A stretch of 64,000 bases of DNA. Origin: Candidatus Nanopelagicales bacterium. GTDB lineage: Bacteria; Actinomycetota; Actinomycetes; S36-B12. The stretch is taken from the NCBI GenBank assembly GCA_028687755.1, contig JAQTZL010000002.1, forward strand, positions 274,459-338,458, in the 5' to 3' direction. Position 1 is the first letter of the stretch, and each line of letters opens with the position of its first letter. Under the pieces are notes generated by a model. That model saw nothing but the letters and a program-made list of their open reading frames with translations, did no database searches and was not told the origin of the DNA. A program made the position numbers and the translations under genes. This document shows, in pieces, positions 40,200 to 43,496 of this stretch.

Positions 40200-41920
40200 T
40201 GCGTAAACAACTTCTGATTGTGGGTGCATTCGCGAGTTCATTGCTGCTGTCCGGCTGTGGCCTGCTGCCGTGGTCGTTAACTGCGCAGGTTCCGACCTCC
40301 AGTTCCGTGCAACAGGGCAATGCCAGCGGCGCAGACTCAGATGATCAATTCATTCGTGTCATTCCTCAAGCGCCACGGCGAAATATGACCGCTACGCAAC
40401 TTGTGCAAGGTTTTTTGGATGCCTCAGCTGCTTCAGAGTCGGATCACTCCGTTGCTCGGATGTATTTGACGTCAGAAGCTGCAGCGGCGTGGGAACCAAA
40501 GTCCGGAGTTCAAGTGTTTAAGGGCACCCCAGAGCTCACGTCGGTTGGCACAACAGTCGTCTTCAATGCCCAACTAGAAGGTCAAATCTCCAAGAGTGGC
40601 AACTACTCGATTAACCAAAATGGAAAGCAGCTCAATGCAAAGTTCTCACTTGTTCGCGACAATGGCGAATGGCGCATTGCCGCACTGCCTCAAGGGTTAG
40701 AGCTTTCAACGGTAGACGTGCAGCGTGCCTATCGCGATCTTTCTGTCTACTTCTTTAATCCTCAGTTCAGCACCTTGGTTCCGGATTCGCGCATGATCGC
40801 CGTTCCGGGTGATGGTTTGGCTGCAGGTCTCATGCAGGCGTTGCTTGCTGGGCCAAGTGAGTGGTTGGCGCCAGCGGTCAAGGATGCATTTCCTTTTGGT
40901 GTGGGCCTGAATTTTAATCGAGTACCGATTGAAAATGGTGTGGCAACGGTGGATCTCACTGCTGATGCGAGCTTCGCAAATGATGCAGTTCGCCGTGAGA
41001 TGGCTCAACAGATTGTTTGGACTCTTCGCCAAGTGCCTGAGATCCGTGCAGTCACGATCACTGCAGGTGGTCAGGCGCTGTCCGTCCAAGGTGTGCCCAA
41101 TCCAATACCTCGCGATCAATGGCCTGAAATTGATCCGTCTGGTCTTGCACAAGGAACGCAAGCGATCGTTTCGAAATGGACGGGTGTTTACCAACTCACT
41201 CGCATTGGCACGAGTCGCTTGGCGGGTGTTCCACCAGTTGCGAACTCTGCATTCACTCAAGTAGTCACAAATAAGAGTTCGGGGATGCTTGCAGGGCTCG
41301 ATGTGCTCGGCCGTGTGTGGAGTACTCCGTTGGATTCAAATCCAACATGGTCAAAGTTGCCCATCACTCAGGTGATTCAGTGGATTGAATTTGACCCTCT
41401 TGGTGGTTTGTGGATGCGCGATGTCAATGGTGGCTTACAGGTGTGGGATGCGCCAGGTCCATTGAAATCAATTCGCACAATTGGTCTGCCTGTTGGAGCC
41501 AGTGTGGTGAAGGCAGTGCCTTCTCGTGATGGCACGCGAGTCGCGCTTATCGTCCAACGTGGCAAGACAAGCGCGCTGTATTTAGCACGCATTGAACAAG
41601 CCATTGATACAGGTAAGCGAGCACTTACTGGGCCTATCCGGATTGCCGGGTCAGTGGGCTCAGTTATTGATGTGGATTGGTCGAGCGCGAATTCCTTGGC
41701 GTTCATCGGGCGCAATGGTCCAGGTGCGCTACAAGCCTTCGACGTGGACTTAGCTCTGGGCACACTCGTACCCCAAGGAGGCCCAGATAAGCCGGACGCT
41801 ATTGCTGCTGCACCTGGTTTACCAGTGTTGGTCTCGGCTAAGGACGGCCTGATCTATCAGTTTGATGCGGGTGCTTGGTCTTCTCGGTTAAACGCTTGGT
41901 CGCCGTCTTACCCGAGCTAA
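40196..41920 (+). CDS. lpqB: Lipoprotein LpqB
   Basis: 574 aa lipoprotein that interacts with the MtrB extracytoplasmic domain and tunes MtrA signalling. Signal peptide with lipobox LSGC; a GerMN domain (about 200-300, VQRAYRDLSVYFFNPQFSTLVPDSR and VATVDLTADASFA); then a beta-propeller-like C-terminal half with repeated blades (GRVWSTPLDSN, VVKAVPSRDGTRVALIV). Start GTG 40196 or ATG 40199, both overlapping the mtrB stop. mtrA-mtrB-lpqB is the conserved order. Confidence 0.93.
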   Translation: MMRKQLLIVGAFASSLLLSGCGLLPWSLTAQVPTSSSVQQGNASGADSDDQFIRVIPQAPRRNMTATQLVQGFLDASAASESDHSVARMYLTSEAAAAWEPKSGVQVFKGTPELTSVGTTVVFNAQLEGQISKSGNYSINQNGKQLNAKFSLVRDNGEWRIAALPQGLELSTVDVQRAYRDLSVYFFNPQFSTLVPDSRMIAVPGDGLAAGLMQALLAGPSEWLAPAVKDAFPFGVGLNFNRVPIENGVATVDLTADASFANDAVRREMAQQIVWTLRQVPEIRAVTITAGGQALSVQGVPNPIPRDQWPEIDPSGLAQGTQAIVSKWTGVYQLTRIGTSRLAGVPPVANSAFTQVVTNKSSGMLAGLDVLGRVWSTPLDSNPTWSKLPITQVIQWIEFDPLGGLWMRDVNGGLQVWDAPGPLKSIRTIGLPVGASVVKAVPSRDGTRVALIVQRGKTSALYLARIEQAIDTGKRALTGPIRIAGSVGSVIDVDWSSANSLAFIGRNGPGALQAFDVDLALGTLVPQGGPDKPDAIAAAPGLPVLVSAKDGLIYQFDAGAWSSRLNAWSPSYPS

Positions 41921-41936
41921 TTCAGCACTTCCGATG

Positions 41937-41956
41937 CCGTAATAAATATGTTACGG
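41937..41956 (+). promoter_or_regulatory. Operator-like palindrome before the HTH gene
   Basis: CCGTAA (41937-41942) and TTACGG (41951-41956), 8-nt AT-rich spacer, 17 bp before the HTH-gene ATG. Suits binding by the HTH protein as an autoregulator. Confidence 0.5.
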
Positions 41957-41973
41957 TTTATGAGGAGGAAGTG

Positions 41974-42390
41974 ATGACTAATAGTCGAGTTTTCTGGAAA
42001 GACTTAGAGCAAGACCTGCAAGATCCAGAGTTTGTGCGTGAGTACGTTGCGGAAACCATTCGGATCGCCACTATCGATTCTGTTATGAACGCACTCGAAT
42101 CCGCGCGCACTACTCTTGGACTGTCCAAGGCAGAGCTCGCTCGAGCCGTGCAAGTGGAGCCGGCAGCGATGCGTCGGATGTTTTCAGTTGAACAACCAAA
42201 TCCGACGCTTGCAACGCTGTCACAAATTGCTGCGGCACTTGGGATGAGGGTGACTCTCGAACCATTCGATACCGCAGATGAGCGCGCGATCGCTGAACCT
42301 TTGAGGAGCGGGCAAGTGAGAGATGTTAAAAGACTGGTTCGTCAACTTGAGGTTTTTCAAAACCGATCACTTTCGCCTTTGCATTCCTAA
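41974..42390 (+). CDS. XRE-type HTH protein, probable antitoxin
   Basis: 138 aa. The N-terminus resembles HigA/addiction-module antitoxins (FWKDLEQDLQDPEFVREYVAETIRIATIDSVMNALESAR). The helix-turn-helix LSKAELARAVQVEPAAMRRMFSVEQPNPTLATLSQIAAALGMRVTLEP follows. ATG 41974 has GAGGAGG upstream. It converges on the RelE/HigB-like gene and overlaps its end by 4 bp. A classical pair would be co-directional, so the pairing is inference from family types and contact. Inserted between lpqB and comF, where most actinobacteria have nothing. Confidence 0.72.
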   Translation: MTNSRVFWKDLEQDLQDPEFVREYVAETIRIATIDSVMNALESARTTLGLSKAELARAVQVEPAAMRRMFSVEQPNPTLATLSQIAAALGMRVTLEPFDTADERAIAEPLRSGQVRDVKRLVRQLEVFQNRSLSPLHS

Positions 42391-42767
42391 ATAATCGAGC
42401 GTGGGTTTTGGTTGAAATATTCCACGCCAAGGTTGCGGATCTGGCGATACTCTCTTTCACTCAGTTTCGTCCGAAACGGTTTGTCTCGCCCATCGATAAC
42501 AACGAGTAAAGGCATTGTCTGCCCTATGCCTTCGTAATCAAGCAAGCAAAATAGTCTGTAGTGATGTCTCTTTGGGCCACTGAGGCGAATCTCGAACCAT
42601 CCGCTCATTGATCCTCGCATCGCCTCCCAGTAACCACCTCCTGAAAATTGGTTCGGAGGAGCAGATGCAACTGCGATGAGCACAGCGCGGTTAACTCCAT
42701 GCAATGGCAATTGAATTTCTGTGTATAACTCCTTGGCAAGCTGCAAGTTTTCCACAGGCAAAAGCAA
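42387..42767 (-). CDS. RelE/HigB-like putative toxin
   Basis: 126 aa. The core GWFEIRLSGPKRHHYRLFCLLDYEG, then LLVVIDGRDKPFRTKLSEREYRQIRNLGVEYF follows the phage-type Gp49/HigB toxin layout (strand with Arg pairs, a short-lived hydrophobic strand, Lys/Arg-rich end). These are usually ribosome-dependent mRNA nucleases. The N-terminal 40 residues are less typical. The start is uncertain: TTG 42767 or GTG 42755, both without ribosome site. It reads toward the HTH gene and shares its last bases with it. Confidence 0.6.
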   Translation of the reverse strand: MLLPVENLQLAKELYTEIQLPLHGVNRAVLIAVASAPPNQFSGGGYWEAMRGSMSGWFEIRLSGPKRHHYRLFCLLDYEGIGQTMPLLVVIDGRDKPFRTKLSEREYRQIRNLGVEYFNQNPRSII

Positions 42768-42806
42768 GTGAATTGAATTTACTGTTGTGATATCTGATCA
42801 TCGTTC

Positions 42807-43496
42807 ATGCTTGTTCGCACCCATGAGTTAGTACGCAACTTTGCAAATGACTGCCTCGATGTCGTGCTCTCACGCGCATGCGTGCATTGCGATCGACCAG
42901 GTTCGTTGATCTGCGAACCGTGTGCGTTATTGATTCCTCCGACTGCCGAACAGCGTGAGTTTCATCATGAGCTTTGGTTTGGCGCTTCATATGAAACAAC
43001 CGTGCGAGAAATGATTAATGCGCACAAGGATCATGGTGCTCGGGCACTCACTTCAGATCTTGGATTGCTTCTTGCGCGTGCAGTGTGGTCAGCATCTGTT
43101 TCAAGTTCTTGTGCGCGTCCAGTCGTTCTTGTTCCCATTCCTGCTCATCGATCGTCCTTACGCAAGCGAGGCCGTGACACAGTTATGGAGATTGCTGCAG
43201 ATGCAGCTGCTCAGGTTTCTGTGCGCGGAATTCCTTGCGTTGCTCGGTCATTGCTTATTCGGGAGATTGAAACCAAGCGCAATGCAGGGCGCTCTCTTCG
43301 AGAACGGCGAGACATCGCTGGAACCTTCGGTGTTCGTGATTCGAGGGTGATGCCTTCGCGAGTGATCGTTGTTGACGACATTGTCACCACTGGTGCAACA
43401 GTCAATGAGGGAGTTCGCGCACTAATTCAGTCAGGAATTGGTGTGGATGCAATTGCTTGCGTAGCCAGCACGCCATTGTCTGATCAGGTCGCTTAG
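42807..43496 (+). CDS. comF: Competence protein ComF (phosphoribosyltransferase family)
   Basis: 229 aa. N-terminal zinc-ribbon Cys residues (CVHCDRPGSLICEPC), then a PRTase fold with LVPIPAHRSSLRKRGRDTV and the PRPP loop VIVVDDIVTTGATVNEG. ComF is needed for internalising or handling of transforming DNA. Its location after mtrAB-lpqB and before secA is conserved. Goes with comEA/comEC earlier in the window. Confidence 0.88.
   Translation: MLVRTHELVRNFANDCLDVVLSRACVHCDRPGSLICEPCALLIPPTAEQREFHHELWFGASYETTVREMINAHKDHGARALTSDLGLLLARAVWSASVSSSCARPVVLVPIPAHRSSLRKRGRDTVMEIAADAAAQVSVRGIPCVARSLLIREIETKRNAGRSLRERRDIAGTFGVRDSRVMPSRVIVVDDIVTTGATVNEGVRALIQSGIGVDAIACVASTPLSDQVA

Follow-up and report, generated by a model that had tools for sequence, protein, structure and literature searches.

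The closest described relatives of the gene pair analysed here are HigBA modules, such as those of S. pneumoniae (PDB 6af3/6af4) and M. tuberculosis (HigB1, Rv1955), with which the pair shares the predicted toxin fold, an XRE antitoxin and a palindromic operator. However, HigBA genes form a co-directional operon, while the pair in our window (the whole stretch of 64,000 nucleotides from a Candidatus Nanopelagicales bacterium that was analysed) does not, and in the family to which it belongs the two genes are convergent in 79 of 98 loci. Moreover, the family toxin differs from that of HigBA in that it seems to have its own promoter, lacks an operator and carries an extra basic N-terminal tail, and in that it has no NCBIfam model and gives weak matches to Gp49. 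A second related arrangement is the operon of a Gp49-like toxin (PF05973) and an XRE protein, in which relatives of the window HTH protein are encoded directly behind the toxin gene. In contrast to the present family, these operons have both genes on the same strand with the toxin first, and their toxins are about 112-147 aa long and match Gp49 with E values of 3e-23 to 5e-25, as opposed to 3.4e-4 at best.

Facing genes are known from other contexts, and control through the overlapping 3' ends of convergent genes is an established principle (PMC7154746). For instance, in the type I toxin-antitoxin (TA) systems txpA/RatA, fst/RNAII and bsrG/SR4, the genes converge and their 3' ends overlap (PMC8167048 and PMC3874152). 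There, however, an untranslated RNA serves as the antitoxin and the toxin is a short and often hydrophobic peptide, whereas in the present family the gene facing the toxin encodes a conserved HTH protein and the pair consists of two conserved folded proteins. The relBE2-asrelE2 system of M. tuberculosis, classified as type IIb, combines type II proteins with convergent transcription over the toxin gene, and relE2 is controlled by RelB2 together with an antisense RNA through RNase III (PMC9325379). In that case, an ordinary operon is supplemented with a non-coding antisense RNA, whereas here, speculatively, the mRNA of the antitoxin would itself take the role of the facing transcript. Similarly, convergent restriction-modification systems with a C regulator, exemplified by Csp231I (PMC4824078), have separately promoted toxic and protective genes, an HTH autoregulator and a leaderless transcript, but consist of a restriction enzyme, a methyltransferase and a third regulator gene. 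In the open-licence literature (including PMC2701414, PMC8191103, PMC6504116, PMC10767807 and PMC5481352), we encountered no account of a type II TA family with a convergent layout.

Based on the analysis reported here, we suggest, with a probability of about 0.68, that the window contains a decayed copy of a type II TA module that derives from HigBA and is normally convergent. We consider the module a HigBA-derived variant rather than a plain member because it resembles HigBA in fold, partner and operator but lacks the operon arrangement.

The gene pair between lpqB and comF

In the window, an XRE/HigA-like HTH gene for a putative antitoxin and autorepressor (138 aa, plus strand, 41974..42390, ATG at 41974 and stop codon TAA at 42388-42390) faces a RelE/HigB-like ORF of 126 aa (minus strand, 42387..42767), which starts with TTG, ends with TAG (42389-42387) and represents a 5'-truncated toxin gene. 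As the first-pass annotation had proposed, and as the stop codons read directly from the sequence show, the two genes converge with an overlap of 4 bp, CTAA (42387..42390), which holds both stop codons; the corresponding distance of -4 recurs at other loci. The 20-bp operator palindrome of the HTH gene, CCGTAA-N8-TTACGG (plus strand, 41937..41956), has its 3' edge 17 nt from the HTH start codon. No Rfam family matched the region 41700-43000, and a terminator and promoter scan of 41850-42900 returned one terminator-like site, inside the HTH gene, and no promoters, which is no more than was obtained with shuffled sequences.

The proposal that the pair is an insertion between lpqB and comF is borne out by seven congeneric genomes. 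The lpqB stop codon (41918-41920) and the comF ATG (42807) are separated by 886 bp in the window and by 66-112 bp in the seven congeners (L076-L082), all of which have an empty site. A TTATCCACA-type motif, which presumably resembles a DnaA box, lies close behind lpqB in L076-L082 and beside comF in the window (42747-42757), and its start precedes that of comF by 60 nt in the window as well as in L076, L078 and L079. Together, the empty sites and the displaced motif indicate that a segment of about 823 bp net (41921..42746) was inserted between the lpqB stop codon and the motif. By comparison with L076-L079, the adjoining DNA (42747..42806) is native lpqB-comF intergenic DNA, and it is the source of the first seven codons of the toxin ORF. 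The motif is conserved in this genus.

A family of mostly facing gene pairs

When the window protein was used as the query against 84,980 species genomes, 70 loci were recovered, and further searches of this kind found the toxin in four of 85 genomes of the same taxonomic family and in eight plasmid records. With a profile as the query, 14 of 396 genomes of the phylum were positive, as were 10 of 299 genomes from one class and 3 of 24 from another. Over the resulting 98 toxin loci, which contain at least two repeated rows (L035/L072 and L064/L125), the pair is convergent in 79, co-directional with the antitoxin first in 11 and divergent in one. At the remaining seven loci no HTH gene was seen; four of these (L035, L052, L063 and L072) are at contig ends and three (L069, L116 and L130) are toxin fragments. 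Most loci were retrieved with the window protein, which biases the set toward close relatives; in an evenly drawn sample of the phylum, nine of the 14 loci, the window included, are convergent, three are antitoxin-first, one is divergent and one is without an HTH gene. Convergent members were found in Actinomycetota and in some Myxococcota. In an unrooted toxin tree of 90 rows, the antitoxin-first and divergent members are grouped in a single supported branch (SH-aLRT 97), with only about two changes of orientation over the tree. In other words, the tail-to-tail layout, which had initially been treated as a one-off, is a family trait and not a product of chance. A strict rule of invariable convergence is rejected by the co-directional and divergent members.

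The spacing of the two genes is also conserved. Among the 67 pairs for which both stop codons are known, the stop-to-stop distance is at most 13 nt in 62 and between -10 and 13 nt in 55, as opposed to 14 and 7, respectively, of the 46 background convergent pairs called in the same loci by a simple GC3-based gene caller (Fisher p 7.5e-13 for the -10 to 13 range, a statistic that ignores kinship). Tight spacing is also frequent among the background pairs. In L054 and L057, the coding regions overlap deeply, with distances of -80 and -113. Because the stop codons nearly touch, most members leave no space for an intrinsic terminator between the genes, and as a consequence the 3' ends of the transcripts would overlap except where trimming, or Rho-dependent termination within the opposing gene, shortens them.

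The HTH protein of the window matches HTH_31 and HTH_3, and its gene is apparently intact; at E <= 0.1, HTH_31 is matched by all 46 aligned HTH members and HTH_3 by 45 of them. By profile, the protein is similar to HipB/HigA proteins in the PDB, including the HigA of 6af3, while its AlphaFold model (pLDDT 90) gave no Foldseek match in the PDB at E <= 0.001. The operator motif GTAACATATATGNTAC is present within 80 nt of the HTH start at 61 of 66 loci when up to four mismatches are allowed, and the window palindrome is a site of this family operator, with two mismatches to the family 16-mer by inspection. Thus, the profile matches and the recurring palindrome sustain the earlier description of a HigA-like gene with its operator. 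At its right end, GTAACATATATGNTAC reads TACGNT, which is TANNNT-like and overlaps the -10 element of the HTH gene; in this putative autoregulatory operator at the antitoxin promoter, the family agrees with HigBA.

A weight matrix built from the sites upstream of HTH genes detected 60 distinct strong sites in 656 kb, distributed across 59 of 74 loci, and no site in random sequence of equal length. Of these, 59 are just upstream of an HTH match and the last (L068) is upstream of an HTH gene found by profile, and none of the 60 sites in the 74 loci, including all convergent loci scanned, is before the toxin gene. With at most one mismatch, a single operator is present in nine of 12 whole genomes and none in the other three, and the nine single positions coincide with the loci's own sites; the window genome is without a site at this threshold because the window operator carries two changes. 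In the antitoxin-first operons, motif-like sites precede the operon, although they are weak in L064, L124, L125 and L128. In L110, the sole divergent member, the operator is between both genes and could control both. From this placement, the toxin gene can come under the control of the operator in the antitoxin-first and divergent layouts, and not directly in the convergent layout.

As a representative of the intact toxins, we modelled the 165-aa protein of Nocardioides glacieisoli (L020; pLDDT 88.5). Its best structural alignment is to S. pneumoniae HigB (Z 12.5, 108 residues, rmsd 2.1), followed by M. tuberculosis HigB1 (Z 12.2) and then by RelE (Z 8.9) and YoeB. The assignment of a HigB-like fold is based on these VIA alignments and not on Foldseek, which found no PDB match for the model at E <= 0.001 (best E 0.014, to M. 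tuberculosis RelK). Sequence profiles reach less far: ten of 38 toxin members match Pfam Gp49 at E <= 0.1 (best 3.4e-4), L020 has no match at E <= 0.01 and the window ORF none at E <= 1; NCBIfam has no match for the toxin members or the window ORF; and the PDB profile matches of the toxin are weak (E 0.008 and 0.14). For the window ORF, the only curated candidates were BglI in Pfam (E 0.19) and a PHROGs entry (E 0.13), both rejected as chance-level. Thus, the intact toxin is HigB-like by predicted fold and has at best weak matches to curated families, and the view of the window ORF as RelE/HigB-like holds by way of its intact relatives. The L020 model has the fold of the RelE/ParE superfamily, while the window copy is without the first strand. 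In intact toxins, the basic N-terminal tail is probably disordered.

A TANNNT sequence is present 5-10 nt before the start codon in 14 of 34 toxin genes with a confident start and in 0-2 at fifteen control offsets, while the leaderless -10 element is absent at the tested spacing from the remaining 20 of the 34. A Shine-Dalgarno-like sequence precedes 7 of the 34 toxin starts as opposed to 28 of 35 HTH starts. These sequence features suggest that the toxin mRNA is leaderless in many, though not all, members, and the toxin gene appears to be served by a promoter separate from that of the HTH gene. In the plasmid records L120, L121 and L122, the toxin is annotated as “hypothetical protein”, and in L120 and L122 the annotated start is inside the N-terminal region of the family; these starts omit the basic tail, as would be expected if the true starts are leaderless.

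Toxin and HTH proteins have diverged together (distance-matrix r 0.84 over 86 pairs, 0 of 999 permutations). The eight best genomic matches of the HTH protein (E <= 1.8e-27) all have the toxin alongside, while the partners of weaker matches vary or are missing, by which a general rule that the HTH protein is always paired with this toxin is rejected beyond the closest matches. For close relatives, the 86 co-diverging and mostly convergent pairs also speak against the possibility, raised at the outset, that homologues of each protein are always found with other partners. Where only one gene of the pair is not full length, it is the toxin gene at 11 of 91 loci, of which L064, L068 and L128 are perhaps merely divergent and L071 has an assembly gap, and the HTH gene at one, which is at a contig end. 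Such toxin-biased loss is the pattern that a harmful toxin would give.

At six loci (L002, L004, L011, L017, L020 and L024), the toxin gene directly follows a tyrosine recombinase gene on the same strand, which ends about 180-200 nt ahead of the start of the toxin match. The module is there at the edge of integrative elements, and the pair is present in three annotated plasmid regions. We also considered a phage origin of the toxin and rejected it, as no relative was found in viral contigs or phage records.

Working model and meaning of the convergent layout

In our working model, a HigB/RelE-fold toxin of about 165 aa would be made from its own, often leaderless promoter at a separate and probably low level. 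The facing XRE antitoxin would be expressed from a promoter whose -10 element is covered by its own operator and would, thus, repress only itself, and by analogy to HigA it would bind the toxin and thereby neutralise it. When the antitoxin level falls, the antitoxin promoter would open. Since no terminator separates the genes, the resulting transcript may extend across the toxin gene as well, and the overlapping transcripts may give rise to an additional antisense or interference control. In the window, where the toxin has lost its 5' end, the HTH gene has probably been retained as a repressor on its own.

The layout itself could be a frozen accident, i.e. one inversion in an ancestral HigBA-type operon that was spread horizontally and has no regulatory meaning, with the two promoters acting separately, and we judge the chances of this to be even. 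It agrees with the about two changes of orientation on the toxin tree, and a plausible starting point exists in the co-directional, Gp49-toxin-first operons at the edge of the family, in which HTH relatives are directly behind the toxin (L149, L150, L152 and L156) and from which the convergent form may derive by inversion of one gene. Mobility could have spread the frozen form, given the six loci with the toxin directly behind a tyrosine recombinase. However, the spacing has remained near zero over great divergence, which the proteins do not demand, and the toxin side is without an operator in all convergent loci scanned.

Alternatively, and more tentatively, the layout may be a control device in which the antitoxin mRNA or the read-through polymerase acts antisense to the toxin, such that relieved autorepression would raise the antitoxin and lower the toxin mRNA. 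The tight stop-to-stop spacing is kept across Actinomycetota and Myxococcota, and the deep coding overlaps (e.g. L054 and L057) go further in the same direction. The operator is on the HTH side only when the genes are convergent, whereas it is before both genes in the antitoxin-first operons and between the genes in L110, and relE2 of M. tuberculosis provides a “type IIb” precedent (PMC9325379). Nevertheless, compact genomes favor short spacers anyway, both transcripts could be terminated early by Rho, and the survival of operon and divergent members implies that antisense control is not obligatory.

Somewhat doubtful is the most far-reaching version of this idea, namely that the family is a widespread class of facing protein TA systems in which the transcription or mRNA of the antitoxin doubles as an antisense silencer of the toxin; as such, an antisense effect of the antitoxin transcript on the toxin is speculative, if plausible. 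If true, a single operator would steer both genes in opposite directions, with low antitoxin leading to more antitoxin while toxin mRNA is cut, and type I and type II logic would be combined in a hybrid that is fixed by gene layout. The antitoxin-first operons and the divergent member would then be natural controls without a facing transcript.

The incomplete toxin in the window and the significance of the family

Where the start is confident, family toxins usually have a length of 157-173 aa and consist of a basic tail (often M[ST]PD..R.RR), then HDVVYFRRH.. and then the conserved core. By contrast, the family profile matches the window ORF only over model positions 50 to 164 of 165, i.e. from alpha1 to the C-terminus (minus strand, 42393..42737; profile match G000:C2:316851-317195, alignment A1), and family toxins begin about 38-40 residues upstream of the window start. 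The window ORF lacks the basic tail and the first beta strand with its loop (model positions 1 to ~49; the strand comprises residues 32-36 in the L020 model). It has no ATG, its codons 1-7 (42767-42747) are native lpqB-comF intergenic DNA, and the missing N-terminus was not found in the three frames read upstream. Thus, the window ORF is an incomplete gene that is 5'-truncated at the edge of the insertion, and the first-pass view of a working pair is not supported for this copy. At the same time, the frame is open and the ORF retains each of the 19 columns given as invariant in A1, an alignment in which the window row is included, which makes the 5' loss look recent or only partly relaxed. The window toxin may, therefore, have decayed recently or may still do something, but it is probably dead, with the HTH gene left as a solo remnant repressor. 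Elsewhere, genome G267 has three HTH copies at E <= 1e-12, and beside two of its HTH copies (L154 and L157) there are just C-terminal remnants of the convergent toxin, as in the window.

It is improbable that the window pair is still a functional TA system in which the toxin is translated from TTG 42767 and the seven native codons replace the missing strand. Such a product would draw on the stop-free frame of 136 codons and the retained invariant residues, and a TAAATT sequence 8 nt before TTG 42767 matches the leaderless spacing of the family, although AT-rich DNA gives nearly the same by chance. The tail, strand and loop would still be missing and there would be no ATG; in addition, the gene is present in only one of nine genomes of the genus, and decayed toxins are found beside intact HTH genes at further loci. 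Least probable is that the HTH gene is an ordinary mobile-element repressor next to an unrelated small non-toxin protein, for although the PHROGs matches of the HTH protein are phage repressors and regulators and the partner is a “hypothetical protein” in three annotated plasmid records, the modelled RelE/HigB fold of the partner, the constant partnership and co-divergence, the toxin-biased decay and the single operator per genome, at this locus, all argue against it.

Type II TA pairs are defined and sought as same-strand operons: for non-RNA types, TADB 3.0 looks for two genes on one strand that are -20 to 150 bp apart, TAfinder needs same-strand pairs and TASmania works on two-gene pseudo-operons. 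A module that is mostly convergent escapes such searches, and the one overlooked here spans two phyla, plasmids and integrase neighbourhoods. Since other members combine the same proteins and the same operator in an operon or in a divergent pair, the family allows the effect of gene orientation on TA control to be tested.
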